64,000 nt of DNA from contig NZ_JAJONE010000006.1 of the NCBI RefSeq assembly GCF_024700075.1, positions 62,001-126,000 of the forward strand, in the 5' to 3' direction. Made by a program: the position numbers and the translations under genes. Origin of the DNA: Hymenobacter sp. J193. Its GTDB lineage: Bacteria; Bacteroidota; Bacteroidia; Cytophagales; Hymenobacteraceae. Below the pieces are notes generated by a model. That model ran no database searches and was not told the DNA's origin. It saw only the letters and a program-made list of their open reading frames with translations. Numbering within the stretch: position 1 is the stretch's first letter; each line of letters starts with the position of its first letter. Below, piece by piece: positions 5,283 through 33,966 of the stretch.

Positions 5283-5286
5283 CACG

Positions 5287-8429: not shown

Positions 8430-8445
8430 TTGATTTGACGCACCC

Positions 8446-9709: not shown

Positions 9710-9755
9710 CCTGGCCCGGCTCCCTTTTCATTTCCCACTTATCTCCGCCAAACCC

Positions 9756-10481: not shown

Positions 10482-10488
10482 TCCCTCG

Positions 10489-10531: not shown

Positions 10532-10563
10532 ATCATCACCCACCCCAATCATACCCGTTTCCC

Positions 10564-11115: not shown

Positions 11116-11184
11116 GCGGGCGCCGTTTGGGCTGCCTGCTGCTGCAACAGCGGGTGGCCCACCGACTGGTTTTAACCTGATTGT

Positions 11185-12426: not shown

Positions 12427-12438
12427 CCGTCAACTATC

Positions 12439-13065: not shown

Positions 13066-13078
13066 TGCCACTTCTGAT

Positions 13079-14224: not shown

Positions 14225-14269
14225 CTCCGCCTCACCCGCTGGTCTTCTCGCTTCCTGCTTCTAATTCCC

Positions 14270-14782: not shown

Positions 14783-14883
14783 GCTACTCAACTGGCCTGG
14801 GCCACTGCCCGGAACACTCCCGAAGCCACGAGGGGAGGGGCCAACCGGCCGCTTCCGCTTCTTCCTCTTTGCGCTACTAACCG

Positions 14884-18105: not shown

Positions 18106-18108
18106 GCC

Positions 18109-18738: not shown

Positions 18739-18747
18739 TTATGCAAA
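18737..18747 (+). promoter_or_regulatory. AGTTATGCAAA motif upstream of the copper storage gene
   Basis: It reads AGTTATGCAAA, directly after the AraC stop and about 80 bases before the copper storage gene. It is followed by CTGCACGGCCGG, resembling the flank of the copA-side copy. It is one of five copies in the island. Confidence 0.45.
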
Positions 18748-18826
18748 ACTGCACGGCCGGGCCGGGGTATAAATAAAAGCTACCCTGATAAGGTCAGCTA
18801 TCCGTTTCCACCTTACCCCATTTCCC

Positions 18827-19162
18827 ATGCATACGCAAAACCAACCCCTGCTCGACGCCCTCAATGCCTGCATCGCCGCCTGCGAGCACTGTGCCACCGC
18901 CTGCCTGCACGAGGACAACGTGAAGATGATGGCCCGCTGCGTCCTGTTGGACCGGGACTGTGCAGACGTGTGTGCCCTTACTGCCCGTCTCGTGGCCCGC
19001 GGCTCGGAGCATGCTGCCCATCTGCTGAAAGAATGTGCCGAAATCTGCAAGGCCTGCGCCGACGAGTGCGAGAAGCACGGGGCCCACTCCGAACACTGCC
19101 GCGCATGCGCTGAAGCCTGCCGCCGTTGCGAGCAGGCCTGCCGTCAGGGTATCGCTGCCTAG
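18827..19162 (+). CDS. Four-helix-bundle copper storage protein (Csp-like)
   Basis: This 111-residue protein has 16 Cys arranged in CxxxC, CxxC and similar helical spacings (for example CIAACEHCATAC and CRACAEACRRCEQAC). This is the pattern of Csp-type proteins that fill a four-helix bundle with Cu(I)-thiolates. There is no signal peptide, so it is cytosolic, like Csp3. It would buffer excess cytosolic Cu(I) when the pumps are saturated. It has its own gene-free leader with a TTATGCAA motif and a terminator hairpin behind it. Confidence 0.92.
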   Translation: MHTQNQPLLDALNACIAACEHCATACLHEDNVKMMARCVLLDRDCADVCALTARLVARGSEHAAHLLKECAEICKACADECEKHGAHSEHCRACAEACRRCEQACRQGIAA

Positions 19163-19175
19163 GTATTTATTAAGT

Positions 19176-19219
19176 ACAGTAACAGCCAGCTGGTAGGTAT
19201 ACCAGTTGGCTGTTACTGT
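19176..19219 (+). terminator. Hairpin terminator after the copper storage gene
   Basis: A 20-base stem (ACAGTAACAGCCAGCTGGTA with its reverse complement, one G-T wobble) closes on a 4-base loop. Only a short T-poor tail follows, so termination may be partial. Confidence 0.7.
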
Positions 19220-19234
19220 GTTCCGGGGTCAGGA

Positions 19235-19245
19235 AATCATGCAAG
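19235..19245 (+). promoter_or_regulatory. AATCATGCAAG motif upstream of the CopZ-like gene
   Basis: It reads AATCATGCAAG, one base from the copA-side AATTATGCAAG, and lies about 100 bases before the CopZ-like start. Confidence 0.4.
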
Positions 19246-19345
19246 CCCCAGACGTAATTGTGTACCCCGGCCGGCGCACCCCGCGCTACTTTTGGGTGTT
19301 CTTATGTCGAACCCGCCCGACTTGGGCAACACCTTTTCAATCTCC

Positions 19346-19552
19346 ATGAAAACGCTTCAATTCAACACCAATATCAACTGCGGCAGTTGCATCAAGGCCG
19401 TAACGCCCACGCTCAACAACGAGCAGGACATTGCATCGTGGCAGGTGGACACTGCCAATCCCAACAAGGTGCTTACCGTAACCGGCGACATTACCGAAGC
19501 ACAGGTTTTGGCCCTGGTGGAAGACGCCGGCTTTAAGGCACAGGCAGTTTAG
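19346..19552 (+). CDS. HMA-domain copper chaperone (CopZ-like)
   Basis: This 68-residue protein is a single heavy-metal-associated domain. The metal motif is NINCGSCIKAV with Cys12 and Cys15, using GSC where classic CopZ has MTC. It should carry Cu(I) in the cytosol to CopA or a regulator. The start at 19346 gives the usual strand just before the CxxC; the longer frame from 19292 has no support. A strong terminator follows. Confidence 0.85.
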   Translation: MKTLQFNTNINCGSCIKAVTPTLNNEQDIASWQVDTANPNKVLTVTGDITEAQVLALVEDAGFKAQAV

Positions 19553-19577
19553 CGCTTCCCCCTAAACCAGCAGTGAG

Positions 19578-19612: not shown

Positions 19613-19650
19613 GGCAGCTTCAAGCGAAATGTTATTTCCCACAGCTATTA

Positions 19651-19690
19651 GGGGTAGCACAATAGTAGGAACGGTAAACAACGGTAGGGA
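19651..19690 (+). repeat. Left terminal repeat of the composite transposon with transposase-tail remnant
   Basis: The 38-40-base Tn3-type end is followed by GAAATTCAACGAGCT, which resembles the last codons of the transposase at 29705 (reading LVEFP on the minus strand). Only this stub of that transposase copy remains here. Confidence 0.75.
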
Positions 19691-19769
19691 AATTCAACGA
19701 GCTATTCTTAGGCTCTTTACATCAGCGGGGGCTAAAACTGCTTTAAGCCCTGTGCGGCCAGCTGTGTTA

Positions 19770-20649
19770 GAGCGTGTTTGGGAATTAGTCGGCTGTTGCT
19801 CGGCGCAAGGTTATGGTCAAGTTAGCAACCAGCAGCCAAGCCGCATGGCTGCTGGTTGTGCGCTCGTAATCCATGGCCAGCCGGCGAAAGCAGTTCAGCC
19901 AGGCAAAGGTGCGCTCCACGACCCAGCGCTGGGCCACCGGCACAAACCCGCGAGTGGCACTGGGTGGCCGACTGGCTACCTGGTGCTGCCAACCCAGCCC
20001 TTGCACCTGCTGGGCGAATTGTCCGCCGTATGCTTTGTCGGTCAATATCTTGCGTAGTCGGCTAGCCCAGGCCGGGCGCAGGTGCGTGGGGGGCGGGCAG
20101 CAACGGCCGCGCCGCCCGGCTGTCATGGCCGTTAGCCGCGTGGACGTGCACGCGCCAAATGCGCCCGCCCGTGTCACAGAGCACTTGCCGTTTGCGTCCG
20201 TTGACGCGCTTGTGTGCATCAAGGCCCCGCTGCTGGCCCAGACGCGGGGCCAACTTGACGCTCTGCGCGTCAACCAGCGCCAGCGACGGGGTGGGCAAGC
20301 GCTGACTCGCCAGCCGGTCGGCGCGGTTCGCCGCCTCATTGAGCCGTTGCAGCAGGCCGGTGGCTTGCCAGCGGGCGAAATAGTAGTAGACCGCCGACCA
20401 GGGCGGAAAACACGCCGGCAAGCTGCGCCACTGGCAGCCCGTGCGGCACACGTAGCGCAGAGCGTCAACGACTTGACGCAAACACAAACGCCGCTTGCGT
20501 TGCAGGGGCAGCAATGGCACAATAACTTGCCACTGCGAGTCAGTGAGGGGATGATAGCACTCAACCATAAAGCGAACCGGAGCCTAGGAACTCCGACCGC
20601 AACTTACTGGCTCGTTTCTTTTTGCCCTACCTAATTCCCAAACACGTTC
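19770..20649. mobile_element. IS5-family insertion sequence (880 bp)
   Basis: Its ends are GAGCGTGTTTGGGAATTAG and the reverse complement of CTAATTCCCAAACACGTTC, 19 bp with one mismatch. Both sides are flanked by TA, the short target duplication usual for the IS427-like branch. It holds a single two-frame transposase gene and sits between the composite transposon's left end and the hydrolase gene. Confidence 0.85.
19785..20568 (-). CDS. IS5-family transposase, two overlapping frames
   Basis: The DDE transposase is encoded in two frames. The first (20568 to 20062) holds LTDSQWQVIVPLLP, the CQWRSLPACFPPW helix region and the first catalytic Asp (LALVDAQSVK). The second, in the +1 frame, ends at 19785 and holds the second Asp (ILTDKAYGG) and the Glu (WVVERTFAWLNCFRRL). 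The frames join at a run of six C (20088-20093, minus strand), giving about 260 residues, the usual size. Ribosomal frameshifting is common in this IS group, but an extra C from sequencing would look the same. All three catalytic residues are present. Confidence 0.85.
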
Positions 20650-20853
20650 TAAGTTGAGCGGGTGCTCAGACGTGGTCTCTCGCCGTATTACACATTGTAT
20701 TGACGAAGCGATGACCTTGCGCACTACCGCGGGTGCCGCGTCGTGGCCTAGTGTCAAGCCGCAGCCTGCTGGAAAACATTTTTTGCGGGCTGGTGTGATA
20801 TAGCGACCGGGAGCGCGAACAATTAGGCAGAACACACCAACCTGCCTGCCCTG

Positions 20854-21066
20854 ATGATGTCGCCCAAATTCGTCGCCACCTTGCTGCTAGGCCTGGGCCT
20901 TAGCACGGCTGCCCAGGCCCAGGATTTCCTGGCTTACTTCCACGGCAACCGTGACAGTCTGGTGGCCGCCGCCACCCGCATGGTGCACACCCCGCCCCCA
21001 GCGTTTACCGCCCCGCCGCCCCCCGCCGCCCTGGCACCGGCAGCCGCCGACCCAGGGTGTTGTTAA
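20854..21066 (+). pseudogene. 5' part of a secreted alpha/beta hydrolase gene, cut by a transposon
   Basis: The frame starts MMSPKFVATLLLG, has a signal peptide (cleavage near AQAQ), then DFLAYFHGNRDSLV and a Pro/Ala-rich linker. Its last three codons and stop (GGG TGT TGT TAA) are the end of the transposon at 21055. The preceding five bases, ACCCA (21050-21054), are repeated at 27561-27565. Joining 21054 directly to 27566 keeps the frame and gives one 346-residue protein: signal peptide, linker, then the hydrolase encoded at 27566-28405. The stub by itself would be a short secreted peptide with no function. Confidence 0.8.
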
Positions 21067-21095
21067 ACAAATAGGGTAAAACCTCCGACTCGGCC

Positions 21096-24000
21096 CTACG
21101 CCGGTTTGCTTGGCGGCTGCCAGGTAGCAATCAGGTCCATGTCAAACGGGGCTTCGGCCAGCAGGGGGTGGTCGGAGAAGTCGTACTCGCCGTGCAGGTT
21201 CAGGTGGCGGTAGGAGAGCACGGCGAAGGGCGAGAGCGTGGCCAGCGTAGCCGCTTGCTGCTCGGGCGGCAGCCGGGCCAGGTGCTGGGAGAGGTGCAGG
21301 TAATTCCAGCAGATGATGGCGTTCATCAACAAGCGCTTGCAGGTCTCGGCCACCAGCTGCTCGGAGCGGGTGGCGGCGTGAAACTCCTGGTTGCGGCCGT
21401 GCCAGACGGCGTGGGCCAGCCGGTGGGCGCTCTCGCCCTTGTTGAGCTGCTTCTGGATGCGCTGGCGCAGTTCCACCTGGTCAACGTAGCGCAGCAGGAA
21501 CTCGGTTTTAACCAGCCGGCCCAGCTCTTTCAGGGCCCGGTAGAGCGGGTGCTGGCGGGCGTAGGAGTTGAGGCGGCCGAACAGGCGGGAGGCCTCGCTG
21601 TGGCGCAGCTTCAGGGTGACGACCAGGCGCAGGACCTCGTCCCAGTGCCGGGCGATGCGCTCGGGGTCGAGGCGCGCGTCGGGCAGCAGGGTCTGCCCCA
21701 GTTGCCGGTGCGTGGCCACCGGCTCCCAGCTGTAGAGCTGCTGGTTGGTGAGCTGGCGGATGCGCGGCTCGTAGGCGATGCCCAGCATGCGAGTCACGGC
21801 GAAGATGACTTCGGTGTAGCCGTGCGTGTCGGTGCTGTGCACGTCGGTGGGCCGCACGGCGTGGCGCAGCAGCCCCTCCAGCAGGTGCGTGGCCTCGCGG
21901 TCGGCGGCGCTGAACACGGTCGAGTCGAAGACGAGCAGCGTTTCGTCCACGTAGGAGTAGGCCGTCAGGCCGCGGCGGTTGCCGAAATACTTGAACGAGG
22001 CACTGCCGCCGAGCGAGTCCACGGCCAGGTCATACTTCTGCCCGTCGCTGCTGCTGTGCAGCACGTCGGGGGAGCGCCGAAAGGCCTCGCGCAGGCGCAG
22101 CTGGCGGGTAAAGTTCAGAATCAGTTCATTGGCCTGGCGCAGGTTATCGAGCGAGAAATGCGTGCTAGCCAGGCGCTGCAGGGCCGCTTCGTCCACCTGG
22201 GGCGCGACTTGGGCCAAGCGGCGCAGGCCCAGGTTGCAGCCCAACCCGACCAGGGCGGCTAGCAGCTGCGACAAGGGCGGTGGCGTGCGGGCGTGTTTGC
22301 TGGGCAGCGAGCCGAAGGCCGTGTCAAACTGCGTCAGCCGGGCCACGCTGGTGAGTACCTCCCGCAAGGGTACGACCCGGTGGCGCGGAAACAGGTGGGC
22401 CGGCAGGCGCGGCTGCTCGGCCGGCAGCCGGGGCGTCGTGAGGCGGTAGCGCCCGGCCGGGGTGCGGTGCGCGTGCGGGTTGTCGGCCCCGCTCAGGTGG
22501 GCGTTCGTGGCGGCAAACTGGGCCTGCAGTTGCGCGTGTAGCGTGGCCTGCACCGTCGCAAAATCGCGCCAGGCACTCAGCCCCGCCTGCTCCAGCAAGG
22601 CCTCGTGCTGCTTGGCCCACTGCGCGGCCGGCAGCAGGTAGTGCTCAAACGCCCGGTACTGGTAACAGCACGTAAAGTTGAGTTGGCCGGACTTGATGGC
22701 CGTGGCCATCTCCATAAACAGCAGGGCTTTATAAAGGGAGGTGCGTAACCGACCTTGCGCATCGAGGACGTAGGCCCGTTGCGTGAGCGAGAGAAAGTCC
22801 AGCGGCACCTGCGCGCCCAGGTGCCCGTCGTGCTGCTGGTAGTAGTGCACGGCCCGCCACAGGTCGGCGCGGGTGGTCGCCTCGTCCACGACCAAGGCTT
22901 TGACCAACGCCCCGAGCTTGGCCTGCAGGCGCAACGAGGCAGCGGCCAGCGCCTCGTGAAACAGCGCCTCGCCCGCCTGCTGCTCGGTGGCCAGGCGCAG
23001 CTGCTCCAACTGCTGGTGGTCTTCGCTGAGCTGGGCGGCCGTGACCTGGTGGCGCTGTAGCAGGGTGTCGATGCGCGCCAGTTTCTGCTCGGCGGCCACG
23101 TCGGGCGCATCAACTAGGGCGCGAATCTGGGTAAGGGCCTGCAGGTGCCGGTAGCCCCGGCCCGTGACCTGACTCGTCAGTTGCTGGGTGGTGGTGCGCT
23201 GCTGGTAGAGCGTCTCCTTGACCTGCTCGCGGCACTGATTGGTCGTGCTGGTCACCGTTTGCAGCAACGTATCGACCAGGGCATCATCCAACTCGTAGTA
23301 CTGGTGCACCACGAAGCTGAGTAGGTAGAGGTAGCGCCGCTCGTCACGGCGGTAGAGTTGCGCGGCCTGGGCCCGCAGCACGTACTCGGCGTAGTAGGTG
23401 ATGGCCTGGTCCGAGAGGCGCAGGCGCTGCCAGAGCGGCTGCAGCTGCTCGAAGAGCTGCCGCAGGGACGCGAAATGGGTGACCCGTTCGCGGATTTCCC
23501 CGGGGCGCAGGCCCTGGCGAATGCGCTTGAGAAAGGTGAGCGGGTAGCGCCGGTCCGCCTCCGCTTCGCGGGCGTCGGGGTCGTCGGCGGCCAGCAGCCG
23601 GTCCAGCAAGCGCTGCTCGCCGGGCTGCAGGTGCTGCTGCAAGCGGTGGAGCAGCCGTTTCTCGAACGCGAGCAGGGCCCGCGTGATGAGGTCGGCCAGC
23701 GTGTTGTAGGTGGGCAGCTCCAGCCGGTGCTCGTGCAGAAACAGCACCAGGTAATCGAAGACCGACGCCGGCTTCAGGTGCTGGCTGCTTAGGCGGACCG
23801 CCTCCTGGTACAGCCGGTCCGCCGCGGCCGCCTCGAACCGCGCAATACCCAGTTGCTCGCACAAGAGCTGCTGGTGGGCATAATAGCGGGCATCGGCGTA
23901 GCGAAGCGGGTCAAAGTCGGCGGGCCCCAGGCCCAGCTGCTGGGCCACGTACGCCACATCGGCCGCGTGGTAGCGGGTGGCCACGTAGAAGCGCTGGCTA

Positions 24001-24185
24001 ATCTGGAAGTAGCCCAGCTGCAAGACAAACCCGACGCGGTTGCCCGGCGCCAGCATCCGGGCCAAGTGAACATCCGCCCAATCCGGGACGGCAAAGACCC
24101 GCGCCTGCTCGGCCGCTGGTACCAGCGGGGGCTGCTCGTAGAGCTCACGTTCCTTGCCCAGGTGAATCCGCAGGTGCGTGGCCAT
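21096..24185 (-). CDS. tnpA: Tn3-family transposase
   Basis: This 1029-residue protein has the length and order of Tn3 transposases: an N-terminal DNA-binding/DUF4158-like region, a long helical middle, and a C-terminal catalytic domain. The latter shows DSLGGSASFKYFGNRRGL, the catalytic-Asp region STDTHGYTEVIFAV, and HWDEVLRLVVTLKLRHSEAS near the end. It recognises the 38-bp ends and makes 5-bp target duplications, matching ACCCA here. No stop or frameshift is visible, so it may be active. It is divergent from the resolvase gene across a 138-base region. Confidence 0.93.
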   Translation of the reverse strand: MATHLRIHLGKERELYEQPPLVPAAEQARVFAVPDWADVHLARMLAPGNRVGFVLQLGYFQISQRFYVATRYHAADVAYVAQQLGLGPADFDPLRYADARYYAHQQLLCEQLGIARFEAAAADRLYQEAVRLSSQHLKPASVFDYLVLFLHEHRLELPTYNTLADLITRALLAFEKRLLHRLQQHLQPGEQRLLDRLLAADDPDAREAEADRRYPLTFLKRIRQGLRPGEIRERVTHFASLRQLFEQLQPLWQRLRLSDQAITYYAEYVLRAQAAQLYRRDERRYLYLLSFVVHQYYELDDALVDTLLQTVTSTTNQCREQVKETLYQQRTTTQQLTSQVTGRGYRHLQALTQIRALVDAPDVAAEQKLARIDTLLQRHQVTAAQLSEDHQQLEQLRLATEQQAGEALFHEALAAASLRLQAKLGALVKALVVDEATTRADLWRAVHYYQQHDGHLGAQVPLDFLSLTQRAYVLDAQGRLRTSLYKALLFMEMATAIKSGQLNFTCCYQYRAFEHYLLPAAQWAKQHEALLEQAGLSAWRDFATVQATLHAQLQAQFAATNAHLSGADNPHAHRTPAGRYRLTTPRLPAEQPRLPAHLFPRHRVVPLREVLTSVARLTQFDTAFGSLPSKHARTPPPLSQLLAALVGLGCNLGLRRLAQVAPQVDEAALQRLASTHFSLDNLRQANELILNFTRQLRLREAFRRSPDVLHSSSDGQKYDLAVDSLGGSASFKYFGNRRGLTAYSYVDETLLVFDSTVFSAADREATHLLEGLLRHAVRPTDVHSTDTHGYTEVIFAVTRMLGIAYEPRIRQLTNQQLYSWEPVATHRQLGQTLLPDARLDPERIARHWDEVLRLVVTLKLRHSEASRLFGRLNSYARQHPLYRALKELGRLVKTEFLLRYVDQVELRQRIQKQLNKGESAHRLAHAVWHGRNQEFHAATRSEQLVAETCKRLLMNAIICWNYLHLSQHLARLPPEQQAATLATLSPFAVLSYRHLNLHGEYDFSDHPLLAEAPFDMDLIATWQPPSKPA

Positions 24186-24323
24186 AAGCTACCCAAAAGG
24201 CGATGGTGTAAACGACCGTTATTTCTACCCACCAATGATAGCGTTAACGTCCATGTAAAGGTATCGAAAACCGGTACCTTTACGAAGCGCATTTACCTTA
24301 TCGCTAACCTGCCCGTTTTGCCC
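24186..24323. promoter_or_regulatory. Divergent promoter and putative res site between transposase and resolvase
   Basis: The region contains the dyad GTAAAGGTA (24255-24263) and TACCTTTAC (24275-24283), separated by 11 bases, a plausible resolvase-binding subsite. The divergent Tn3-type arrangement normally places res here. Confidence 0.5.
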
Positions 24324-24938
24324 ATGCTATTTGGCTACGTCCGCGTCTCCACGAGCGCCCAATCGGCCGAGAGCCAGAAGAGCCTCATCGCCCGCTATCT
24401 GGTCGAGCACCGCTGGACCCTCGACGAGTGGATTGAAGTAGAAATGTCTTCCCGCCGCACCGCCGGGCAGCGCCGCCTGCCCGAGCTGCTGGCCAAGGTT
24501 GCTGCCGGCGATACGGTCATCGTCTCCGAGCTCTCCCGGCTGGGCCGCTCGCTGCGCGAAGTGCTGGGCCTGATTGAAGAGTTGATTCACCAGAAGCGGT
24601 GCCGGCTGATTCTGGTCAAGCAGGGCCTGGACCTGGACCCGCAGAATCACCGCGACATGACCCACAAAATCCTGCTCACCATTTTCGCCATGCTGGCCGA
24701 GCTGGAGCGGGACTTCGTTTCCGAGCGCACGAAGGAAGGCTTGCGGGCGCGGCGCGAGCAGGGCATCGTGCTGGGCAAGCCCAAGGGTGTGGTGCAGCCC
24801 TCCATGTACGACGCCGACCGCGAGCGGATTCTGCACCTGCACGCGCTGGGCGTACCGCTCACCACCATCGTGGACGTGCACCTGAAGTACGGCAAGTACC
24901 TCTCCCTGAAAAACTACCTGGCCAAACTGCAGCGGTAA
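24324..24938 (+). CDS. tnpR: Serine recombinase / resolvase of the Tn3-family element
   Basis: This 204-residue protein starts MLFGYVRVST with the catalytic Ser9, has the VSELSRLGRSLREVL and LAELERDFVSERTKEGL helices, and a C-terminal helix-turn-helix-like region (LHLHALGVPLTTIV). It would resolve cointegrates at res. The start at 24324 was chosen because it gives the canonical resolvase N-terminus; the open frame continues far upstream but over the transposase. It is divergent from tnpA, as in the Tn3 subgroup. Confidence 0.9.
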   Translation: MLFGYVRVSTSAQSAESQKSLIARYLVEHRWTLDEWIEVEMSSRRTAGQRRLPELLAKVAAGDTVIVSELSRLGRSLREVLGLIEELIHQKRCRLILVKQGLDLDPQNHRDMTHKILLTIFAMLAELERDFVSERTKEGLRARREQGIVLGKPKGVVQPSMYDADRERILHLHALGVPLTTIVDVHLKYGKYLSLKNYLAKLQR

Positions 24939-24967
24939 CCGAGCCGAAATGCCGCCCCCTAACCGGA

Positions 24968-25004
24968 CGACTCGGAGGTTTTACCCTATTTGTTTAACAC
25001 CACC
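24968..25004 (-). repeat. Internal copy of the transposon's right end
   Basis: Reverse-complemented, it reads AGGTGGTGTTAAACAAATAG and continues through the same TIR sequence, differing from the true end at 27560 by two bases near the tip. It marks the probable border of an older, shorter transposon (21055-25004). Confidence 0.75.
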
Positions 25005-25146
25005 TAAATTACCTATATAATTATAATTTTTTTATATACTATGCGCCGTATGGGGTCTCTTTGGGAGCCAGCAGCCTATAGAAGAAAGCCTGCGGTCTGG
25101 TTGAGAAAAACGATTTCTCCAGCCAAACGCTAGCAGCTCAACAGCG

Positions 25147-26028
25147 CTAGCTTTCTTCTGCTTTTGCGAACCCAACTGATTCACGAAAAAACTGCGGCGA
25201 TACGGCCGTATTTTTCTTGAAGAAGCGGCTGAAATAGTATTCATCCCCGAAGCCCAGCGCGAAGGCGATAGCCTTGACGGATTGACTGGTTAGGTACAGT
25301 TCGCGCTTGGCCTCCATAATGATTCGCTCCGTGATGAGTTGGCTGAGCGTCTTCTGATAATGGGACTTGACTAGGCGCGTTAGGCTTCGGGCGGGAACTC
25401 GTAACAGGTCGGCATACTCCCCGGCCGTGTGCAGGTGGCGGTAGTGCGTATTGATGGCATCTTGAAGTTGCTGCAGAAGCCAGGGCTCCCGGCCAGACGG
25501 GTTCTGCTCGGTGCCTAACGCGGGCTGTGCAGTACGAATTCGGATAGCTTTCAGCAAAAAGAGCTTCAGATATAATACGATGGACTCTTGTTGTGCTACC
25601 TCTTGACGCCGTACTTCCTCTTGCATCACAGCTGCCAGGGCGGCAAATTCACGCACCGCCTCTGTTGTAACCGGGAAGAAGGGCGGCTCAAAAATTGTGT
25701 TGAACAAGATGCCATTGCTAGCTACCTCCTGCTGATGCCGGTAGATGCAGAAAAAGTCGGCATGAAAATCCAGGACCAGGCCCGCTACAGCGGTGCTGGC
25801 TTGGATAGTGTAAGGTTGGTAAGGGCCAAAACAACACAGCGTACTGCCAGCAAACAGGTAGGTGGCAAAGTTGGCGCGTAGCTCGCCGCTGCCCTGCGTA
25901 AGCAGAATGAGGGAGTAATAATTATTGCGTTGTAAGTAATTAAACGGGGTGTCGTCGCTAAAGGAGTAGCTTCGAAACGCTAATTCACCCGTGTGCGGAT
26001 GAGTTAGCAGGAGACAGTCAATCGCCAT
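25147..26028 (-). CDS. AraC-family transcriptional regulator (transposon passenger)
   Basis: The protein has an N-terminal cupin-like sensing domain (NNYYSLILLTQGSGELR, then FHADFFCIYRHQ) and a C-terminal AraC helix-turn-helix (EAKRELYLTSQSVKAIAFALGFGDEYYFSRFFKK). The preferred start gives MAIDCLLLTH; a start nine codons upstream (26055) is also open. It resembles the regulators that Bacteroidota pair with small oxidative-metabolism genes. It follows the monooxygenase-fold gene on the same strand across a very stable hairpin, so it probably controls that gene. Confidence 0.85.
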   Translation of the reverse strand: MAIDCLLLTHPHTGELAFRSYSFSDDTPFNYLQRNNYYSLILLTQGSGELRANFATYLFAGSTLCCFGPYQPYTIQASTAVAGLVLDFHADFFCIYRHQQEVASNGILFNTIFEPPFFPVTTEAVREFAALAAVMQEEVRRQEVAQQESIVLYLKLFLLKAIRIRTAQPALGTEQNPSGREPWLLQQLQDAINTHYRHLHTAGEYADLLRVPARSLTRLVKSHYQKTLSQLITERIIMEAKRELYLTSQSVKAIAFALGFGDEYYFSRFFKKNTAVSPQFFRESVGFAKAEES

Positions 26029-26071
26029 CGCGTGAGAAGAATAGCAGCTAGCCAACCGGACTAACTGCCCG

Positions 26072-26121
26072 CCAGCCCCTAAAGCGACCTATGCCCAGGC
26101 ATAGGTCGCTTTAGGGGCTGG
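26072..26121. terminator. 24-bp perfect inverted repeat between monooxygenase and AraC genes
   Basis: CCAGCCCCTAAAGCGACCTA and following bases pair perfectly for 24 bp with a 2-base loop. No T-run follows on the minus strand. It may be a terminator or processing site, or a palindromic binding or insertion site. Confidence 0.5.
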
Positions 26122-26124
26122 TAA

Positions 26125-26418
26125 TTATTTGGCAGCCAAGATAGCTACTTGTTCAATGACAGGCGGCACGGCCAGCAAGTCGGCCGCATGGGCCATCAAC
26201 GCAGCGGCAATAGGGCCGTTCAGATGCGCCTGCCGGCCTGCTTCATCCGGAAAGGTATCAAAGATACCGAAGGTGGCCGGCGCCAGCTGAATAGCATACC
26301 AGGTTATGGTAGCCGGCTCTTGCTGAGCCAGGGGCAGAGCGCCCGTCAAAAAATCGAGTACTGCCTGCTCTTTACCGGGCTTCGCTTCGAGCCGGACCAG
26401 CAATCCTACATTCTTCAT
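26125..26418 (-). CDS. Antibiotic-biosynthesis-monooxygenase-fold protein (putative quinol monooxygenase)
   Basis: This 97-residue protein has the ABM dimeric alpha/beta-barrel pattern: VGLLVRLEAKPGKEQAVLDF at the start, TWYAIQLAPATFGIFDTFPD in the middle and a closing helix and strand with HLNGPIAAAL. Such proteins oxidise quinols or bind small aromatic compounds without cofactors. It is a passenger of the 6.5-kb transposon, beside its probable AraC regulator. The substrate cannot be inferred. Confidence 0.8.
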   Translation of the reverse strand: MKNVGLLVRLEAKPGKEQAVLDFLTGALPLAQQEPATITWYAIQLAPATFGIFDTFPDEAGRQAHLNGPIAAALMAHAADLLAVPPVIEQVAILAAK

Positions 26419-26719
26419 GGAAGTGGGGGTTAGGTAAATTGATATAACAAAGGTGCTGCCTCTCTGAAAGGATTAACATGGACGGACGCAACTAGTGGCT
26501 GGACAAAAAGACCATGGCCGCTTCAAACCAGTATGTGAGCTCGTGTATCATGGTTTAACTGGCCCCGAATGGTGCAGTGGCTGTTGCAGAACTCGGCACG
26601 ATGCAAAACGTGAAGGGCTTGAGGCTTCGAGCCAGGCTAGAAAAGAACATGAGCAGGCCGTTCATCTAGGCTCAGTAACTATTATACGTAGTTGCTGAGC
26701 TGCCTTGAGAATTCTGTAA
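26419..26719. other. Gene-free stretch inside the transposon
   Basis: About 300 bases between the monooxygenase gene and the miniature element. The left part should hold the monooxygenase promoter. No convincing coding frame, repeat or RNA gene was seen. Confidence 0.5.
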
Positions 26720-27512
26720 GGGGTTCTTTTGCCAAAAGGGCGGATTTACACGCTAAGCCCGGTTATCAAAGAGGGTTATAGTACTGCCTGAGAAAGACTG
26801 ATTCTACGCTGTAGAGCGGGTGCGTGCTGCCTATCAACAAGGAACTCCTTTTTGATAACCTCCGATGCCCGCCAACCCGACCGACCAGCCCACCCGCGTG
26901 GCGCTCTATGCCCGCGTCTCCACCCTCGACAAAGGGCAGGCCCCGGAGACGCAGCTGCGCCCCCTGCGCGAGTACGCCCAGCGCCGCGGCTTTGCCGTTG
27001 TCGATGAATACGTGGACTAGGCCTCGGGTACCAGCGAGGAATGAACTCAGTACAAACGGATGATGGCGGCGGCCAAGAACCGGTAGCTCGACGCGGTGCT
27101 GGTCCGGCGCTACGACCGCTTTGCCCGCTCGACCCAGGCGCTGGTCAACGCGCCGAAGGAATTCCAGAGCCTAGGGGTGGACTTCGTCTCCTACCAGGAA
27201 AATATCGACACCACCACGCCCACGGGCGAGTTGGTGTTCCACGTCATGGCTTCGCTGGCCCTGTTTGAGAGCACGCTCATCAGCCAGCGCGTGCGCGCCG
27301 GCATGGCCCGGGCCAAAGCCCAGGGCAAGCATGTGGCCCGGCCGCCACTGGCCCAGTCTAAGCAGGAGGCCATTGCGCAGCTTCTGCGCAATGGCTTATC
27401 TATGAATCAAGTCATCAAGCAGTTAGACCTGGCCTATGGCACCGTCTACAATTACGCCCAGAAGCTAAAAAGTGCTTAGCGTGTAAATCCGCCCTTTGGG
27501 AAGAAGAACCCC
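26720..27512. mobile_element. Miniature Tn3-like element with inverted repeats and a dead recombinase
   Basis: The ends are GGGGTTCTTTTGCCAAAAGG... (26720) and the reverse complement beginning GGGGTTCTTCTTCCCAAAGG (27512); 36 of 39 positions match. Between them lie a dyad GGTTATCAAA (26761-26770) / TTTGATAACC (26851-26860), which looks like a res site, and a serine recombinase with three stop codons. There is no transposase, so it resembles TIME-type elements mobilised in trans. No matching 5-bp flanks were found. Confidence 0.7.
26865..27479 (+). pseudogene. Serine recombinase pseudogene with three nonsense codons
   Basis: One frame runs from MPANPTDQPTRVALYARVST (catalytic Ser in ARVS) through RRYDRFARSTQALVNA, GELVFHVMASLALFES and the C-terminal helix-turn-helix (LSMNQVIKQLDLAYGTVYNY). 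It is interrupted by TAG, TGA and TAG at roughly codons 52-72. The rest of the frame is well kept, so inactivation is recent. It would have been the resolvase of the miniature element. Confidence 0.85.
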
Positions 27513-27520
27513 TTTTAGCC

Positions 27521-28405
27521 ATGGACTCGGAGGTTTTACCCTATTTGTTTAACAACACCCACCCACTGCGGCACCGCTACTTCAAGGCCCGCGACGGGGG
27601 GCGTCTGCACACCGCCCGGTACGGCCGCCGCTCTCCCCATACCATCCTGTTGCTGCACGGCGTGGGGGCCAGTGGTGCCGCGCTGCACGAGGCCGCCGGC
27701 CGACTGCAGCAAGCGACCGGTGCCGAAGTGTACGCCCTCGACCTGCGCGGGCATGGCCGCTCGGCCGGCCGGGCCGGCGATGTGGACTACATCGGGCAGT
27801 ACGCCGATGACGTAGCCGACGTGGCGGCGGCCCTCCGGCGCGACAAGCCCCGGGGCAAGCTCGTGCTGGCCGGGCACAGCATGGGCGGGGGCATTGCCCT
27901 GCTCTACGGGCAGCAGGCCAGCCCCCGGGTAGACGGCCTGCTGCTGCTGGCCCCGCTGCTGGGCCACGACTCGCCGGCCTTGGCCGCCGCGCTCCCGCCG
28001 GCTGGCCCCGACAGCGCCAACGCCAGCGGCCCCGATTTGATGCACGTACATATCGGGCGTATCATTGGGCTGAAAATGCTGAACAGCGTGCAGTTGCACC
28101 AGCACGATAGCCTGCCCGTGCTCTTCCTGAATGTACCGCCCGCCGCGCCGCTGCGGCACTATTCGTACCGCGCCAACGCCAGCATGGCCCCCGAGCACTA
28201 CGCCGCCGGCCTGCGGGCCGTGACCGGGCCCCTGCTGGTGCTGGTGGGCGGGCAGGACGAGGTGTTTGCCGCCGAGGCCCAGCACCGGGCCGTGCAGGCC
28301 CACAGCCGCGGACAGGTGGAAGTGGTGGCCGGGGCCAGCCACAACGGCCTTTGCCGCGAGGCCCGCACGTTCCAGGTGGTCCGGGAGTGGTTTGCCCGCC
28401 TGTAG
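27521..28405 (+). CDS. Alpha/beta hydrolase (monoacylglycerol lipase / S33-like), N-terminus replaced by transposon end
   Basis: The catalytic domain is complete: oxyanion region LLLHGVGASG, YALDLRGHGRSAG, nucleophile elbow GHSMGGG, Asp in VGGQDEVF and His in ASHNGLC. The substrate is probably a small ester or lipid. The first 15 codons (MDSEVLPYLFNN...) are read from the transposon's terminal repeat. The native protein started at 20854 with a signal peptide and runs in frame from 21054 to 27566. The present product, if made, is cytosolic because the signal peptide is gone. The sigma factor gene starts 3 bases after it, suggesting one operon. Confidence 0.85.
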   Translation: MDSEVLPYLFNNTHPLRHRYFKARDGGRLHTARYGRRSPHTILLLHGVGASGAALHEAAGRLQQATGAEVYALDLRGHGRSAGRAGDVDYIGQYADDVADVAAALRRDKPRGKLVLAGHSMGGGIALLYGQQASPRVDGLLLLAPLLGHDSPALAAALPPAGPDSANASGPDLMHVHIGRIIGLKMLNSVQLHQHDSLPVLFLNVPPAAPLRHYSYRANASMAPEHYAAGLRAVTGPLLVLVGGQDEVFAAEAQHRAVQAHSRGQVEVVAGASHNGLCREARTFQVVREWFARL

Positions 28406-28408
28406 CCC

Positions 28409-28918
28409 ATGACCGCCGCCCCCACTCCGCAGCAGTTCCCGGCCTGGCTGGCGCAGCACCGCGGCATCTTGCACAAAGTAGCCCGCGCCTACTGCCGGGA
28501 CGAAGACGACCGGCAGGACTTATTGCAGGAAATGCTGCTGCGGCTGTGGCAGGCGCTGCCGCGCTACAACCCGGCCCAAGCGGCCGCCTCCACCTGGGTG
28601 TACCGGGTGGCGCTGAACACGGCCATCTCGTTCTACCGTCAGCACGCCGCCCGCCGCGCCGCCCGCGCCCCCCTGCCCGCCGAGTTGCCGCAGCCCTCCG
28701 AGGCGGAGGCCCCCGAGCGGGAGCAGCAGCTGCGCCAGCTGGAGCAGTTCATCGACGAGTTGCGCGAGCTGGACAAGGCGCTGATGCTGCTGTACCTGGA
28801 AAGCAAGAGCCACGCCGATATTGCCGACATCCTGGGCATTTCGGTGAGCAACGTGGCCACCAAAGTGAGCCGAATCAAAGAGCACCTGCGCCAACGCTTC
28901 GCGCGCCAACCCGCCTGA
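28409..28918 (+). CDS. ECF-type RNA polymerase sigma factor
   Basis: This 169-residue protein has sigma region 2 (DDRQDLLQEMLLRLWQALPRY) and region 4 (LESKSHADIADILGISVSNVATKVSRIKEH), joined by a Pro/Glu-rich linker, the standard sigma-70 ECF layout. It overlaps the operon formed by the hydrolase upstream and a membrane protein downstream. That membrane protein is the obvious candidate anti-sigma or modulating factor. Confidence 0.9.
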   Translation: MTAAPTPQQFPAWLAQHRGILHKVARAYCRDEDDRQDLLQEMLLRLWQALPRYNPAQAAASTWVYRVALNTAISFYRQHAARRAARAPLPAELPQPSEAEAPEREQQLRQLEQFIDELRELDKALMLLYLESKSHADIADILGISVSNVATKVSRIKEHLRQRFARQPA

Positions 28919-28923
28919 CGACC

Positions 28924-29592
28924 ATGCAAAACGACGATTTTCAACACCTCTGGCAGCAAACTCAGGCCGCTGCCGATGCTCCGCTGCCCGCCCTGCCCCC
29001 GTCGGCAGCGGTCCTGCCGCCCCTGGCCCGCGTGCTGGGGCCGCTGCGACCGGCCAAGCTGGTGGGCGTGCTGCTGGGCCTGGTCTGGGTGGCCGCCGTT
29101 GACCTGCTGCTCTACCGCGTCTGGGCAGTCGCCAGCCCATTTTTCCTGACATCAGCCGCCGTGCAGGTGCTGCTGACCAAGCTGATGGTGGGCCTCTATC
29201 TGTACCAGCTGGTGCTGGTGCAGTGCGTCGACGCGGGGCAGTCGGTGGTGACGGCGCAGCGGCGGGTGGCCCGACTGCAAGCCTCCACGCTGTGGGTGGT
29301 GCGCCTGGGCTTTCTGCAGCTGCCCGCCTGGACGACGTTCTTCTGGACCGAGGGGCTGCTACGGGCGGCTGCCCCCTGGCAACTGGCGCTGCTGCTGGGC
29401 ACCACGCTGCTGTTCACCCTGGCCGCCGGCTGGCTGTTCGTCAACGTGCGCTACCAAAACCGTCACCGGCGCTGGTTCCGGCTGCTGTTCCGTGGCCCTG
29501 AGTGGGACCCACTCGTACGAGCCATGCACCTGCTCGAACAAACCGAAGATTACCCAGCGGCCCCTTCGGCCAACCCCAGCCGCCAGGGCTGA
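28924..29592 (+). CDS. Membrane protein, candidate partner of the ECF sigma factor
   Basis: This 222-residue protein has a Pro/Ala-rich cytosolic N-terminus (MQNDDFQHLWQQTQ) and four likely membrane helices (about 40-200), with a basic stretch RYQNRHRRWFRLLF before the tail. I do not recognise a zinc-binding anti-sigma motif. The N-terminal QNDDFQHLWQQT pattern is common in small membrane proteins that follow ECF sigma genes in Bacteroidota. It starts 5 bases after the sigma stop, so co-translation is likely. Confidence 0.7.
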   Translation: MQNDDFQHLWQQTQAAADAPLPALPPSAAVLPPLARVLGPLRPAKLVGVLLGLVWVAAVDLLLYRVWAVASPFFLTSAAVQVLLTKLMVGLYLYQLVLVQCVDAGQSVVTAQRRVARLQASTLWVVRLGFLQLPAWTTFFWTEGLLRAAAPWQLALLLGTTLLFTLAAGWLFVNVRYQNRHRRWFRLLFRGPEWDPLVRAMHLLEQTEDYPAAPSANPSRQG

Positions 29593-29704
29593 CGGGCAGG
29601 GAGCGCCCCGGAGCTGACATCGGAGGTCGGCGCGTTGGGACCGGGTAGTGCCCGTTGCCGCCGGATACGGGGTCGCACAATAATAGTAGGAACGGAAAAC
29701 AACG

Positions 29705-32700
29705 TTAGGGAAATTCAACCAGCTGTTCCTGCCAGTTGGCCAGGTTGCGGAGCGGCCGCAGCTCACCGGCTGCCACGCGTTCGGGCAGGGTAAAATCGTA
29801 GCGACCCAGCATGTTGATGTGCTCGTGCAGCAAGGGCGAGAGCCGGGCCACGTCGCCCGGTTCTGGGGCTCCTTCCGTGGCCTGGTGCTCTTCCAGGGCT
29901 TGTTGCAGGTACCGGGCGTTCCACAGCACCAGGGCGTTGACGACCAGACCCAGGGCGCCCAGCTGGTCTTCCATGCCCTCGCGGTAGCGCTGGCGCAGTT
30001 CGCCCTTCTTGCCGTGGAAGACGGCCCGGGCTACGGCGTGCCGCCCCTCGCCCCGGTTGAGCTGCACCAGGATGCGCCGGCGGTAGGCCTCGTCCTGCAC
30101 GTACGCCAGCAGGTACAGCGTTTTCTCCACCCGACCCAGCTCCGCGACGGCCCGTCCGAGGCCCGAGAGGGCACCCGCCCGTTGCAGCGTGCGCATGACG
30201 GCGGTGGCTTTGACCTTGCCGAGTTTGAGCGAGCCGGCCAAGCGGAGCATGTCGTCCCAGTGGTCGTGAATCAGCCGGGCGTTGACGAGGTGGCGACCCA
30301 ACTCGTTGAGGGGACCGTAGTCGTCCTCCTTTTCCAACCGCCAGAAGCGCTGGTCGGCCAGGTCCGCCAGGCGGGGGCTAAAGCGGTAGCCCAGTAGGGC
30401 AAACAAGCCGAACACCACTTCGCTAAAGCCGTGCGTGTCGGTCATGATTTCGCGCGGGTCCAGGCTGGTTTGCTGTTCCAGGAGCCCGGCCAGCAGGAAC
30501 AGGGAGTCGCGCAGGGTGCCGGGAATCACGATGCCGTGAAAGCCGGAGAACTGGTCGCTGGTGAAGTTGTAGTAGGTGATGCCGCGCTCGGCCGCGTAGT
30601 ATTTGCGGTTCCAGCCCGCGTGAATCGTGCGCACGGGTACCACGAAACGCATGCCGTCGGCCGAGGCGACCTCCCCGCCGCCCCAGGCCTGGGCCAGGGG
30701 CAACTGCGCCTGGGCGTCGACCAGCCGGGCGTTGGCGGCCGTAAGCGTTTCCACCCGCAGGTAGTTGTGCTGCACCCAAACCAAGTGTGGCAGCGTTAGG
30801 GCCGGCACCTCGGGCCGGGCGACGCTTTTCAGGCCGATGTTGCAGGCCTGCGCCAGCAGGACCGCGCAGAGGCTGAGCGGCAGGTCGGCGGCGGCCGGCT
30901 GGCCGTCGGCTAGGTGCGTGAAGGCCCCGGTAAAGTCGGTAAAGGCCGCCACTTCCAGCAGCAGGGCCGCCAGCTCGACGGGGGGCAGGCGGGCACTCAG
31001 TTGCTGGCGCAGGCGCGCCAGGCCAGCCGATTCGGCTTGCGCGGCCAGGGGGGTGAGCACGATGTAGGGCTGCCCGTCTTCTTCCAGCACTTGCAAGGCG
31101 GTGTTATCGACCAGGTTCGCACCCACTTCTTGGTAAGCGGCGCGCACCTGCTGGCGAAGGCGGTTCAGTTCCACGGCCGGGTCGGTGGAGCGGTCCAGGG
31201 CGCGGGCCACGGCCTCGCGGGCGGCTTCCCAAGCCTCGCCGCGCAGCAATTCGGCCCGCGGGTCCCCATACCGCTCACTGGTGGGCGCAAACACCTCGCG
31301 ACGGCGCAAGGCTTGGTGCAGTCGGTCGAGCACGCACAGGGTGTAGGCGTGCGGATTCACCTCGCCTTTGGCCGGAAACACCCGCCGCGCCCAACTTTTA
31401 GGCACCACCGCCCGCGGGGCCATCGCCCACTTGGGCCGGCTCCGGCCGCCGGCTTCCTGGGCTTGCAGAAAGTACCAGGCCGCGAGCAGGGGCTGGGCCG
31501 AGGGCGTTCCCTCCAAGGAAATGCCCGCCAGCAGCGCCGGCAGAAAGCGCCGGACCGAGGCGTAGCTGCCGCTGAGCACTTGCAGGGCGGGGTCCTCGTC
31601 GCTGGCCAGGTGTTGCACGACCTCGGCGGCGGCCCTCAATTGGGCTTCGCCCACCGTATCGAGCACCTGCTGGCGCAGGGACGCGGCCGGCACCCCGTCG
31701 TCGAGCAGCAGCTGCACGGCCTGCTGCAAGACCAGCGCTGCCGCGTCCAGGTCTTTGAGCGTGCGCAGCCGCTCGCGGCGGCGGCGGGTCTCCCCGCGCA
31801 GGGCCAGCGTGGTCATCAAGTTGTCGAACAGGTCGAGCACGTCGTCGGTGGCCGTGCGCTCCAGCGTTTGCACAAACACGAGCAGCGTGGCGTGGCGGCG
31901 CTCCTCGCCCAGGCGTCCCAGCGGCTGGGCCCAAGCCAGTTGGGCGTGCCGAGCCAGGCGCGCCAACCGCGCTTCCGGCAAATCTTGCACCGGCACCGTG
32001 CTTACGCCCACCGCCCGAATTTGGTCCAGGCGCCGCAGAGCGGCCACCAGGGCTGGGGCCGATACGCGGGTAGGCGGAGTGCGCAGCACCTCCAACGGGG
32101 TCAGCCGCTCCCCGGGCGAGGCGACCAGCAGTGCATCCAACTGGTCGCGCTGCGCGCCGCTGAGGCGCGCCTGCAGCTGGCGGTAGAGCGACCGGCCCGT
32201 GCGTTCCCGCACCCGCGCAATGAGCCGAGCCAGCAGCGAGACGCCCGGTAACACTATGCGCTGGGCCACCAGGTGCGCGGTCGCCAGGTCAAACAGCACG
32301 CCGGGCCGCAGGGTGCTCGTGCTCACCTGGGCGTAGAGCCAGCGGGTCAAGCCGAAGGCCGGCCGGCCCTCGAAGACCCGGTAGTCCAGGTAGGCCACCA
32401 GCTGCGCCTGGTGGTCATAAATCGTGTTGGGCCGCGTGTAGCGGGTGTGCCAGTCGTCGCTAGGCACCTGCAACTGCTCGGCCAGCGTACGCACGACCAC
32501 GGCCGGCACCTGGGTGGGTGCCGGCAGAAAGGTGCCCAGAAACCGCAGCGTGCAGAGCTGCACGGCGCAGCCGAGCCGGGTATGTGGCAGGCGGTAAGGG
32601 GCCAGAAACTGGACATCCGCTGGACTCAGGTAAAAGAAGCGGGCGAGCTGCTCTGGGCTGGGCTCGGAGTGGTAGCGCCCGTAGCGGGCAGCTTGCTCGT

Positions 32701-32722
32701 CGCTGAGAAATTCGACCGGCAT
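29705..32722 (-). CDS. tnpA: Tn3-family transposase
   Basis: This 1005-residue protein has the Tn3 layout: N-terminal LSDEQAARYGRYHSEPSPEQ region, a long helical middle and the catalytic domain with ASADGMRFVVPVRTIHAG, EIMTDTHGFSEVVFGLF and HWDDMLRLAGSLKLGKVKAT. It ends NWQEQLVEFP, 36 bases inside the left terminal repeat. It differs clearly from the transposase at 21096. No disruption is visible. The recombinase gene ends 3 bases before its start, so both are read as one unit. Confidence 0.92.
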   Translation of the reverse strand: MPVEFLSDEQAARYGRYHSEPSPEQLARFFYLSPADVQFLAPYRLPHTRLGCAVQLCTLRFLGTFLPAPTQVPAVVVRTLAEQLQVPSDDWHTRYTRPNTIYDHQAQLVAYLDYRVFEGRPAFGLTRWLYAQVSTSTLRPGVLFDLATAHLVAQRIVLPGVSLLARLIARVRERTGRSLYRQLQARLSGAQRDQLDALLVASPGERLTPLEVLRTPPTRVSAPALVAALRRLDQIRAVGVSTVPVQDLPEARLARLARHAQLAWAQPLGRLGEERRHATLLVFVQTLERTATDDVLDLFDNLMTTLALRGETRRRRERLRTLKDLDAAALVLQQAVQLLLDDGVPAASLRQQVLDTVGEAQLRAAAEVVQHLASDEDPALQVLSGSYASVRRFLPALLAGISLEGTPSAQPLLAAWYFLQAQEAGGRSRPKWAMAPRAVVPKSWARRVFPAKGEVNPHAYTLCVLDRLHQALRRREVFAPTSERYGDPRAELLRGEAWEAAREAVARALDRSTDPAVELNRLRQQVRAAYQEVGANLVDNTALQVLEEDGQPYIVLTPLAAQAESAGLARLRQQLSARLPPVELAALLLEVAAFTDFTGAFTHLADGQPAAADLPLSLCAVLLAQACNIGLKSVARPEVPALTLPHLVWVQHNYLRVETLTAANARLVDAQAQLPLAQAWGGGEVASADGMRFVVPVRTIHAGWNRKYYAAERGITYYNFTSDQFSGFHGIVIPGTLRDSLFLLAGLLEQQTSLDPREIMTDTHGFSEVVFGLFALLGYRFSPRLADLADQRFWRLEKEDDYGPLNELGRHLVNARLIHDHWDDMLRLAGSLKLGKVKATAVMRTLQRAGALSGLGRAVAELGRVEKTLYLLAYVQDEAYRRRILVQLNRGEGRHAVARAVFHGKKGELRQRYREGMEDQLGALGLVVNALVLWNARYLQQALEEHQATEGAPEPGDVARLSPLLHEHINMLGRYDFTLPERVAAGELRPLRNLANWQEQLVEFP

Positions 32723-32725
32723 CGG

Positions 32726-33318
32726 CTAGGGCTGCGTGACGCCTAGGTTACCGGTCGGTACGCCCAAGTGGGCGAGGTAACGGTAAATCGTGGCCCGACC
32801 TACGCTCAGCAGCAGGCCGATTTCGGCCACGGTTTTGTCTTGCTGCAGGTAGAGCGTCTTGGCGGCCTGGGCCTTGGAGAGTGCTTCTTTCGACAAGCCT
32901 TTGGGCCGCCCGCCCTGCCGGCCCCGCGCCCGCGCTGCCGTGAGCCCGGCCTTGGTGCGCTCGCGGATAATGTCGCGCTCAAACTCGGCCAGCGAGGCGA
33001 ACAGGTTAAACATAAGCCGGCCCTGTGCCGTGGTCGTGTCCAGTGGTCGTGCAGGCTCACGAAATGGATACCCTTCTCCTGAAAGCCTGTGACCAGCGTC
33101 ACCAAGTCTTTGAGCGAGCGGCCCAGTCGGTCAAGCTTCCAGACCACCAGGGTATCGCCGGCCCGCAGCCGGGTTAGCAGTATCTGCAGCTGTGGCCGGT
33201 CCTTGGAAGAAGACGCTTTTTCCTGGACAATGTCGGCGCAGCCGGACGCCTGCAGGGCATCGACTTGTAAATGCAACTGCTGGTCCTGGGTACTGACGCG
33301 GGCGTAACCGACTTTCAT
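32726..33318 (-). pseudogene. Serine recombinase of the Tn3 module, frame-disrupted
   Basis: The first frame (from 33318) starts MKVGYARVSTQDQQLHLQVD with the catalytic Ser9 and runs to IHFVSLHDH. The second frame (ending at 32726) resumes at LDTTTAQGRLMFNL and holds the E-helix (FERDIIRERTKAGL) and helix-turn-helix (TVAEIGLLLSVGRATIYRYL). One missing C near 33039 explains the break. The full protein would be about 198 residues. If the deletion is real, cointegrates of this element would not be resolved, which could favour composite structures like the present one. Confidence 0.8.
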
Positions 33319-33325
33319 GAGCTTT

Positions 33326-33390
33326 TGTCTTATAAAGTCACGGCGGCGAAGATACGCGAACGTAGTTTCGTGAGACCAACTAATAAGACA
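33326..33390. promoter_or_regulatory. Putative resolution site upstream of the recombinase
   Basis: TGTCTTAT (33326-33333) and ATAAGACA (33383-33390) form an inverted pair about 50 bases apart in an AT-rich stretch just before the recombinase start. Confidence 0.45.
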
Positions 33391-33507
33391 TTTTTTCCGG
33401 CAGCTTATCCGGTCTTTGCACCGGAAGTTGGCGTCGCTCAAAAACGGTCGTTTTCTGAGACGCCCCGACCGCCACAAACTCAAGTCCACCCCAACCCGGC
33501 CGGCGCT

Positions 33508-33546
33508 CCCTACCGTTGTTTTCCGTTCCTACTATTGTGCGACCCC
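33508..33546 (-). repeat. Right terminal repeat of the composite transposon
   Basis: Reverse-complemented, it starts GGGGTCGCACAATAGTAGGA and matches the end at 19651 with two differences over ~40 bases. It is followed outside by TATTA, the same five bases that precede 19651. Confidence 0.85.
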
Positions 33547-33585
33547 TATTACGGGGGTTTCGATACAACTGGGCGAAAGATTACG

Positions 33586-33966
33586 CTAAGCCGTTTCAGC
33601 ATCCATCTGCTGCAGGAAGGTCCAATCCTCGACCGAGAGTAGTTGCTGCATGAAGGCCGCGTAGCCGAGGTCGCGGCGTTCGAGCACGTGTCGTCGAAAA
33701 GCCCAACTGCTATTTGCCGCCGCGAAACCGGCGGCAGTCATCGCCTGACGCATCCGGGGCGGCAGCCCGGCCAGCCAGTGCTGAAAGTCGGCCTCCGTGA
33801 GGCGGCTATCCGCTAATTGGTGGTAGCGATACGCGGCATTGCCCACGCGCAACAACTGCGCCTGCTCGGCACGTTCCGTTTCCGGCATTTGCTGCAACGC
33901 CTGCACCTGCTATTCGTGCAGGCGCGGGAGGGGGTGCCGGGGAACTAACAGGTCGTCAAGGTTCAT
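33586..33966 (-). pseudogene. Small plasmid protein with an amber codon at position 19
   Basis: The frame from 33966 starts MNLDDLLVPRHPLPRLHE, hits TAG (33910-33912), then continues QVQALQQMPETERAEQ to the stop at 33586. The original protein would be about 126 residues, helical, with no named domain. CAG to TAG is the likely change. A shorter start at 33906 could still make 106 residues. Confidence 0.55.

Follow-up and report, generated by a model that had tools for sequence, protein, structure and literature searches.

Transposons of the Tn3 family have terminal inverted repeats of about 38 bp that begin with GGGG. According to a section of PMC9579193, the transposase of this family recognises its 38-bp ends, in which a conserved tip (box A) lies at the cleavage site and further boxes lie inside. 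Tn1721, as described in excerpts of two reports, consists of a core with two repeats and captured genes bounded by a third repeat, which has the same orientation as the inner one and adjoins a truncated tnpA; insertion of the whole generates 5-bp duplications, the two same-side repeats are identical, and Tn1722 is able to move alone (PMC5736529, PMC5756416). In one of these excerpts, Tn1721 is proposed to have arisen when two Tn1722 copies lay around the tet region and part of one was then deleted (PMC5736529). Passages on toxin-antitoxin cargo (PMC7157771) and on the formation of Tn1721 (PMC5736529) call the way in which Tn3 transposons acquire their cargo unclear. Our literature search found no paper on Tn3 transposons of Hymenobacter (judged by title, among the matches listed) and listed none on Tn3 elements that combine a passenger with a third, additional or internal inverted repeat.

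We analysed a 64,000-nt stretch of Hymenobacter DNA, hereafter the window, which represents positions 62001-126000 of contig C6 (G000:C6). Contig C6 is an over-assembled circle, in which 1-92478 equals 102636-195109 at 99.8%, the two passes differing at 0.2%. Because the contig repeats itself, the molecule appears to be a plasmid of about 102.6 kb, and an apparent second copy of the composite at C6:184283 was rejected as contig overlap. We find that 19651..33546 (13,896 nt, window coordinates), designated composite A, is very probably a three-ended, Tn1721-like Tn3 transposon, whose outer pair of ends moved core and cargo together and into which a second transposon, element B, and an IS5-like element were inserted later (Table 1).

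Table 1. Features of composite A and of the elements nested in it (window coordinates; L017 is the related H. guriensis locus)
Feature	Position	Strand	Evidence or remark
Left target duplication TATTA, composite A	19646..19650	+	Sequence reading
Composite A distant (third) end, Tn3-type 38-bp repeat	19651..19688	+	Same end in L017 at 15170-15207
tnpA 3'-end stub (about 20 nt), probably left from a second copy of the core	19689..19709	+	Direct repeat with 29682-29728
IS5-like insertion in composite A, transposase in two frames	19767..20652	-	22-nt inverted repeats; PF13340 (IS4/5 family), PF01609; L017 aligns across
Captured alpha/beta-hydrolase gene, 5' part, cut by element B	20854..21054	+	Translation; 344-aa ORF in L017 at 13853-14887
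Left target duplication ACCCA, element B	21050..21054	+	Single ACCCA in L017
Element B tnpA-side end	21055..21091	+	Sequence comparison
Element B tnpA, 1029 aa, Tn3 transposase	21096..24185	-	PF01526, E 2.4e-108
Element B tnpR, serine resolvase	24324..24938	+	PF00239 on enclosing ORF 23853-24938; start mapped from GOD-10R annotation
Element B inner (tnpR-side) end, AGGTG with A for the terminal G; flank unmatched	24969..25005	-	Sequence comparison
Element B cargo, AraC-family regulator	25147..26055	-	PF12833
Element B cargo, small protein, weak ABM-family match	26125..26418	-	PF03992, E 0.032, 14.8 bits, below cutoff 23.1
Element D, miniature and Tn3-type, with 38-bp ends and a truncated resolvase (27096-27479)	26720..27512	.	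Flanks not matching
Element B distant (third) end	27524..27560	-	Sequence comparison
Right target duplication ACCCA, element B	27561..27565	+	Sequence reading; L017
Hydrolase gene, 3' part	27561..28405	+	PF12146 on ORF 27521-28405; L017
Composite A cargo, ECF-type sigma factor	28409..28918	+	PF04542, PF08281
Composite A cargo, 222-aa protein, putative membrane protein from its sequence	28924..29592	+	No Pfam match
Composite A inner end, 3-nt insertion, flank GATAC	29669..29709	+	Sequence comparison
Composite A tnpA, 1005 aa, Tn3 transposase	29705..32722	-	PF01526, E 6.3e-146
Composite A tnpR, two frames (32806-33489 and 32726-33013)	32726..33489	-	Broken or misread
Composite A tnpR-side end	33509..33546	-	Sequence comparison
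Right target duplication TATTA, composite A	33547..33551	+	Sequence reading

Ends and target duplications of composite A

By its transposase, its repeats, its stub and its outer duplication, composite A fits a Tn3-family, Tn1721-type three-ended composite. Both tnpA genes of the window match PF01526, the Tn3 DDE transposase of about 1000 aa, across almost the whole profile, and Pfam found serine-resolvase domains; the tnpR of A appears split over two reading frames and may be either broken or misread. The ends of A begin with GGGGT, which fits the family, and those of B with GGGTG, a diverged form. The layout of complete core, cargo and third repeat was present in A, in B and in a Hymenobacter lapidarius locus (L045). 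The third repeat is accompanied in A by a tnpA remnant of about 20 nt, in the B copy of GOD-10R by a 138-bp duplicate of tnpA-side sequence, and in L045 by a tnpR-side remnant. The outermost pair is flanked by duplications of TATTA in A, ACCCA in B, CATTA in L045 and AACAAT in GOD-10R, and a duplication is absent from the B copy of H. nivis (L194). Thus A resembles Tn1721/Tn1722, as far as the excerpts describe these, in its core, its cargo, a third repeat next to truncated tnpA and an outer 5-bp duplication. In contrast to Tn1721, the host of A and B is Hymenobacter (Bacteroidota), the cargo of A is a hydrolase operon rather than tet, no more than about 20 nt of tnpA remain as the stub, and the inner repeat of A carries a lesion, whereas the same-side repeats of Tn1721 are described in those excerpts as identical.

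A sequence-only reading of the window had described the ends at 19651 and 33546 as one Tn3-type repeat in inverted orientation with identical 5-base flanks. Our comparison bore this out, in that 19651-19688 (+) and 33509-33546 (-) are identical at 36/38 positions, share the tip GGGGT and have TATTA on both outer sides. The same reading had ascribed a 3-base insertion and a non-matching flank to the end at 29669, and we likewise found that this end (29669 onward, +) contains AATAATA where the other two have AATA. The insertion lies between the tip and the body of the repeat and leaves both in place, so that 30/38 positions match ungapped. It was present in both contig passes (91660 and 194297) and in the G031 assembly, that of a second genome, and is therefore no sequencing slip. 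This inner end borders tnpA, its flank GATAC has no partner, and among the three ends the TATTA match is limited to the outermost pair.

The probability of such a match by chance was estimated from 38 loci with related ends, by comparing facing pairs within a locus with pairs across loci. All five flank bases were common to 9/20 facing pairs, or to 8/19 distinct pairs, as L026 and L027 look like one insertion site in two genomes; 5-bp duplications are thus usual among loci with ends related to those of A. Across loci, 8/778 pairs matched at 5/5 bases, and in five of these eight the two loci belong to the same insertion site or the same genome (L021/L022, L023/L024, L026/L027 twice, L029/L083), leaving 3/778 upon their removal. 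The TATTA match would accordingly be expected by chance in 0.4 to 1.0% of cases. With a chance of 1% or less, the earlier proposal that the active pair consists of the right end and the distant left end is likely.

An intact site with one TATTA, which the sequence-only reading had named as a check, was not found: a 27-nt pattern with up to 3 mismatches had 0/120 hits to an uninterrupted site among Hymenobacter genomes. The right flank matched most strongly in five genomes (G040, G119, G059, G021, G095), where the left-flank matches, among those listed, lay on other contigs or about 48 kb away, and 0/39 matching plasmid records held at least 80% of a 22-kb query. The left flank (14009-19553) is a block of RND efflux, AraC and four-helix copper-binding genes common to many Hymenobacter plasmids at roughly 80-89%. 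One base beyond the right TATTA is a solo Tn3-type end of another element (33553-33590, GGGGGTTTC...TTACGCTAAG), for which no partner was found in the plasmid. From 33580-33583 onward, the sequence is homologous to loci of two other genomes (L096, L097).

In L045 (tnpA 94%), the core occupies 9172-13051, the cargo is a 580-aa ORF and the distant end lies at 15931-15968. Its inner end differs at 8/38 positions, and its third end adjoins a 126-bp stretch resembling the tnpR side (82.5%). L045 represents a third three-ended composite with a divergent inner end. As its remnant is from the tnpR side and the stub of A from the tnpA side, third ends seem to be derived from either side of a core. Related two-ended transposons were also found (L016, L036, L039), which span 9 to 11 kb inside matching duplications and contain extra DNA. 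In L016, an A-type transposon (3733-13258, TTAGC duplications) lies just inside two B-type ends, so that the families are nested again. Another contig of the genome to which the window belongs (L015, 9164 and 17496; G000:C3) carries a Tn3-type relative with unmatched flanks, its tnpA being about 80% alike.

Cargo of composite A and order of insertions

The analysis supports the hydrolase, sigma-factor and membrane-protein block as the cargo of the outer end pair. Beside the distant end, the stub (GAAATTCAACGAGCTATTC versus GAAATTCAACCAGCTGTTC, about 20 nt) had been taken to hint at an earlier copy; it is real and fits a second core that was mostly deleted. The full-length cargo query matched in 2/120 genomes, its own and G031, and the lesion-bearing end of A was found in the same 2/120 genomes, once in each apart from the contig overlap. 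No core-only offspring of A was thus seen in the 120 genomes. As a candidate chromosomal source of the cargo operon we considered 23 loci (L143-L165, each the match plus about 1.5 kb on either side, drawn from 63 genomes with a cargo match); the sigma factor matched in all 23 and the hydrolase and membrane protein in 0/23, and the candidate was rejected. No Rfam match was found in the window at the gathering threshold, and no resistance gene was noticed in the composites.

A relative, locus L017 of H. guriensis BT594, aligns to 19651-19770, 20652-21054 and 27561-32254 of the window at 95-98%. The two loci have in common the distant end and stub, the same cargo and the same 3-nt lesion of the inner end, and L017 is without the IS5-like element and element B. 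Its hydrolase ORF is uninterrupted (344 aa), and ACCCA, which brackets B in the window, occurs there once, representing the empty site of B. Its distant end has a flank other than TATTA; L017 lacks the part past tnpA residue 155, the tnpR-side end included, so that it offers no target duplication for comparison. Because the same cargo, stub and lesion occur at a different flank, the composite predates at least one of the two insertions. On this evidence, composite A has occupied two sites and was enlarged in the window by two insertions. Subtracting 6,511 and about 0.9 kb from 13,896, in keeping with the L017 alignment, gives an older composite of about 6.5 kb. The earlier suggestion that the passenger block moved together with later insertions therefore holds in part: the block is cargo, and the later insertions are present, as an IS5-like element and a complete second three-ended transposon, but the whole did not move in a single step, the older unit being about 6.5 kb.

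Element B and the inner ends of its copies

Element B (21055-27560, about 6.5 kb) is bounded by ACCCA and combines a tnpA/tnpR core with an inner end that is altered (25005) and a distant end (27560). Plasmid NZ_CP141185 of GOD-10R contains the B core with the AraC and small-protein cargo at 97.6%, and has a different third end, which consists of the inverted 138-bp tnpA-side copy and has flanks matching over 6 bp; no such tnpA-side remnant lies beside the third end of B in the window. In H. sublimis, the small cargo protein is labelled antibiotic biosynthesis monooxygenase. The AraC and small-protein genes are separated by a perfect inverted repeat of 24 nt (26072-26121, loop of 2 nt), which is conserved in other B copies. 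Among core-only B pairs with both ends, three BRD128 plasmid copies carry 6-bp duplications and 3/6 (H. monticola L136, L239, L241) have no matching flanks. The duplication of B is thus a 5-bp match in the window, compared with 6 bp in GOD-10R and the three BRD128 copies.

The inner end of B was surveyed with 24240-25005 as query, which matched in 26/120 genomes (42 rows, 30 of which were made into loci). Where the inner end borders cargo, it reads AGGTG in 16/16 loci, equal to 15/15 places in 14 genomes when our own plasmid is counted once; without cargo, it reads GGGTG in 8/8 loci with a visible end. The remaining 6/30 loci had no visible end within the mismatch limit. Cargo copies of two further genomes (L194, L195) also have AGGTG. 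By its first 14 nt the inner end has three forms in the 30-locus survey, and H. nivis (L194) adds a fourth. Among the cargo copies examined, all nine in which the tnpA-side end was found keep the first 14 nt of that end intact (window, L192-L194, L200-L202, L204, L244); L203 has only a diverged end upstream, which may belong to another element. The third end is intact in 6/6 copies where it was found (window, L191, L192, L194-L196). The H. nivis copy has both outer ends with unmatched flanks, AATAAGAA and TACCTAGC. The cargo-bearing copies probably descend from one capture, so that 15/15 should not be read as 15 independent events.

In five genomes (L200-L204), a 4-kb stretch that is 99.9% identical follows the B cargo after window position 26515. 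The four of these loci that keep the left end have two different left flanks, the third end was not found within the retrieved stretch, and GCAAAGTA stands to the left of B and again about 320 bp past the cargo break. This repetition prompted us to consider one-ended transposition as the origin of these variants; the idea was dropped, since L201 and L202 share the right-hand sequence and have a different left flank.

Element D, near the distant end of B, resembles Tn3-derived miniature elements (TIMEs) in having two Tn3-type 38-bp ends and a resolvase remnant without tnpA. In H. sublimis (L140), two direct D copies (6224-7016 and 9232-10024) flank 2.2 kb, similar to a TIME-COMP as described in parts of PMC4133298 and PMC13367494. 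Unlike TIMEs, D, a putative mobile element, has flanks in the window that do not match. A simple insertion of D was rejected because its flanks, TGTAA and TTTTA, differ. Given two copies in H. sublimis and one with mixed flanks in the window, it is likely that deletion between two D copies produced the single copy.

Proposed history and its alternatives

In the history that we propose, two tnpA/tnpR core copies would have flanked the hydrolase, sigma-factor and membrane-protein operon, and a deletion would then have reduced the left core to its terminal repeat and some 20 nt of tnpA. Such a two-core deletion origin fits the orientation of the stub and of the inner end of A. The transposase would next have paired the distant repeat with the tnpR-side repeat and carried core and cargo (about 6.5 kb) into TATTA, a step supported by the TATTA duplication and by H. 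guriensis, in which this composite occupies another site. The inner repeat, with 3 nt inserted between tip and body, was probably unused, which would have locked the cargo in. Element B (6.5 kb, at ACCCA) and the IS5-like element entered the cargo later, as the uninterrupted relative L017 shows. Cleavage would presumably be hindered by nucleotides inserted between tip and body, as in A, or by the change of the terminal G, as in B; with an intact distant end present, the transposase would pair that end with the other core end and carry the cargo along. Thus, the inner end of A is probably disabled, so that core and cargo would move only together.

It is possible, but unlikely, that A is fully Tn1721-like, with a usable inner end and a core that is mobile alone or with cargo. 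This behaviour is described for Tn1721 in part of PMC5736529, and the lesion of A spares tip and body, with most positions still matching ungapped; against it, the 120 genomes contained no core-only copy with the A lesion, and the inner end of B was altered in all 15 places, in three different forms.

Two other explanations concern the outer pair. The composite could have been built in place, from a two-ended transposon at TATTA into which cargo entered later by recombination, without ever moving as a whole. The long two-ended relatives within matching duplications (L016, L036, L039) are in its favour, but the same cargo, stub and lesion at another flank in H. guriensis largely refute it, and we regard it as very improbable. 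Still less credible is that the flanks match by chance, 19651 being a leftover solo repeat and the region having arrived in pieces or by homologous recombination. A solo Tn3-type repeat does lie nearby, and the exact empty TATTA site was not found in the 120 genomes; the low frequency of 5/5 matches by chance and the recurrence of three-ended layouts in L017 and L045 nevertheless argue against it.

Returning to the three-ended transposon with a disabled inner end, we tentatively suggest that loss of the inner end could be a recurrent second step of cargo capture (A, B and L045, with third ends from either core side), and that the locked B may then have spread to at least 16/120 genomes (14 in the 30-locus survey plus L194 and L195). 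The three-ended design is already known from Tn1721; what may be new is that the inner end has decayed repeatedly. The relatives show the states side by side, as core only, core and cargo with a third end, and nested copies with an uninterrupted relative. Because several states are preserved, the steps of capture can be put in sequence and the part played by the inner end can be tested in an environmental genus.
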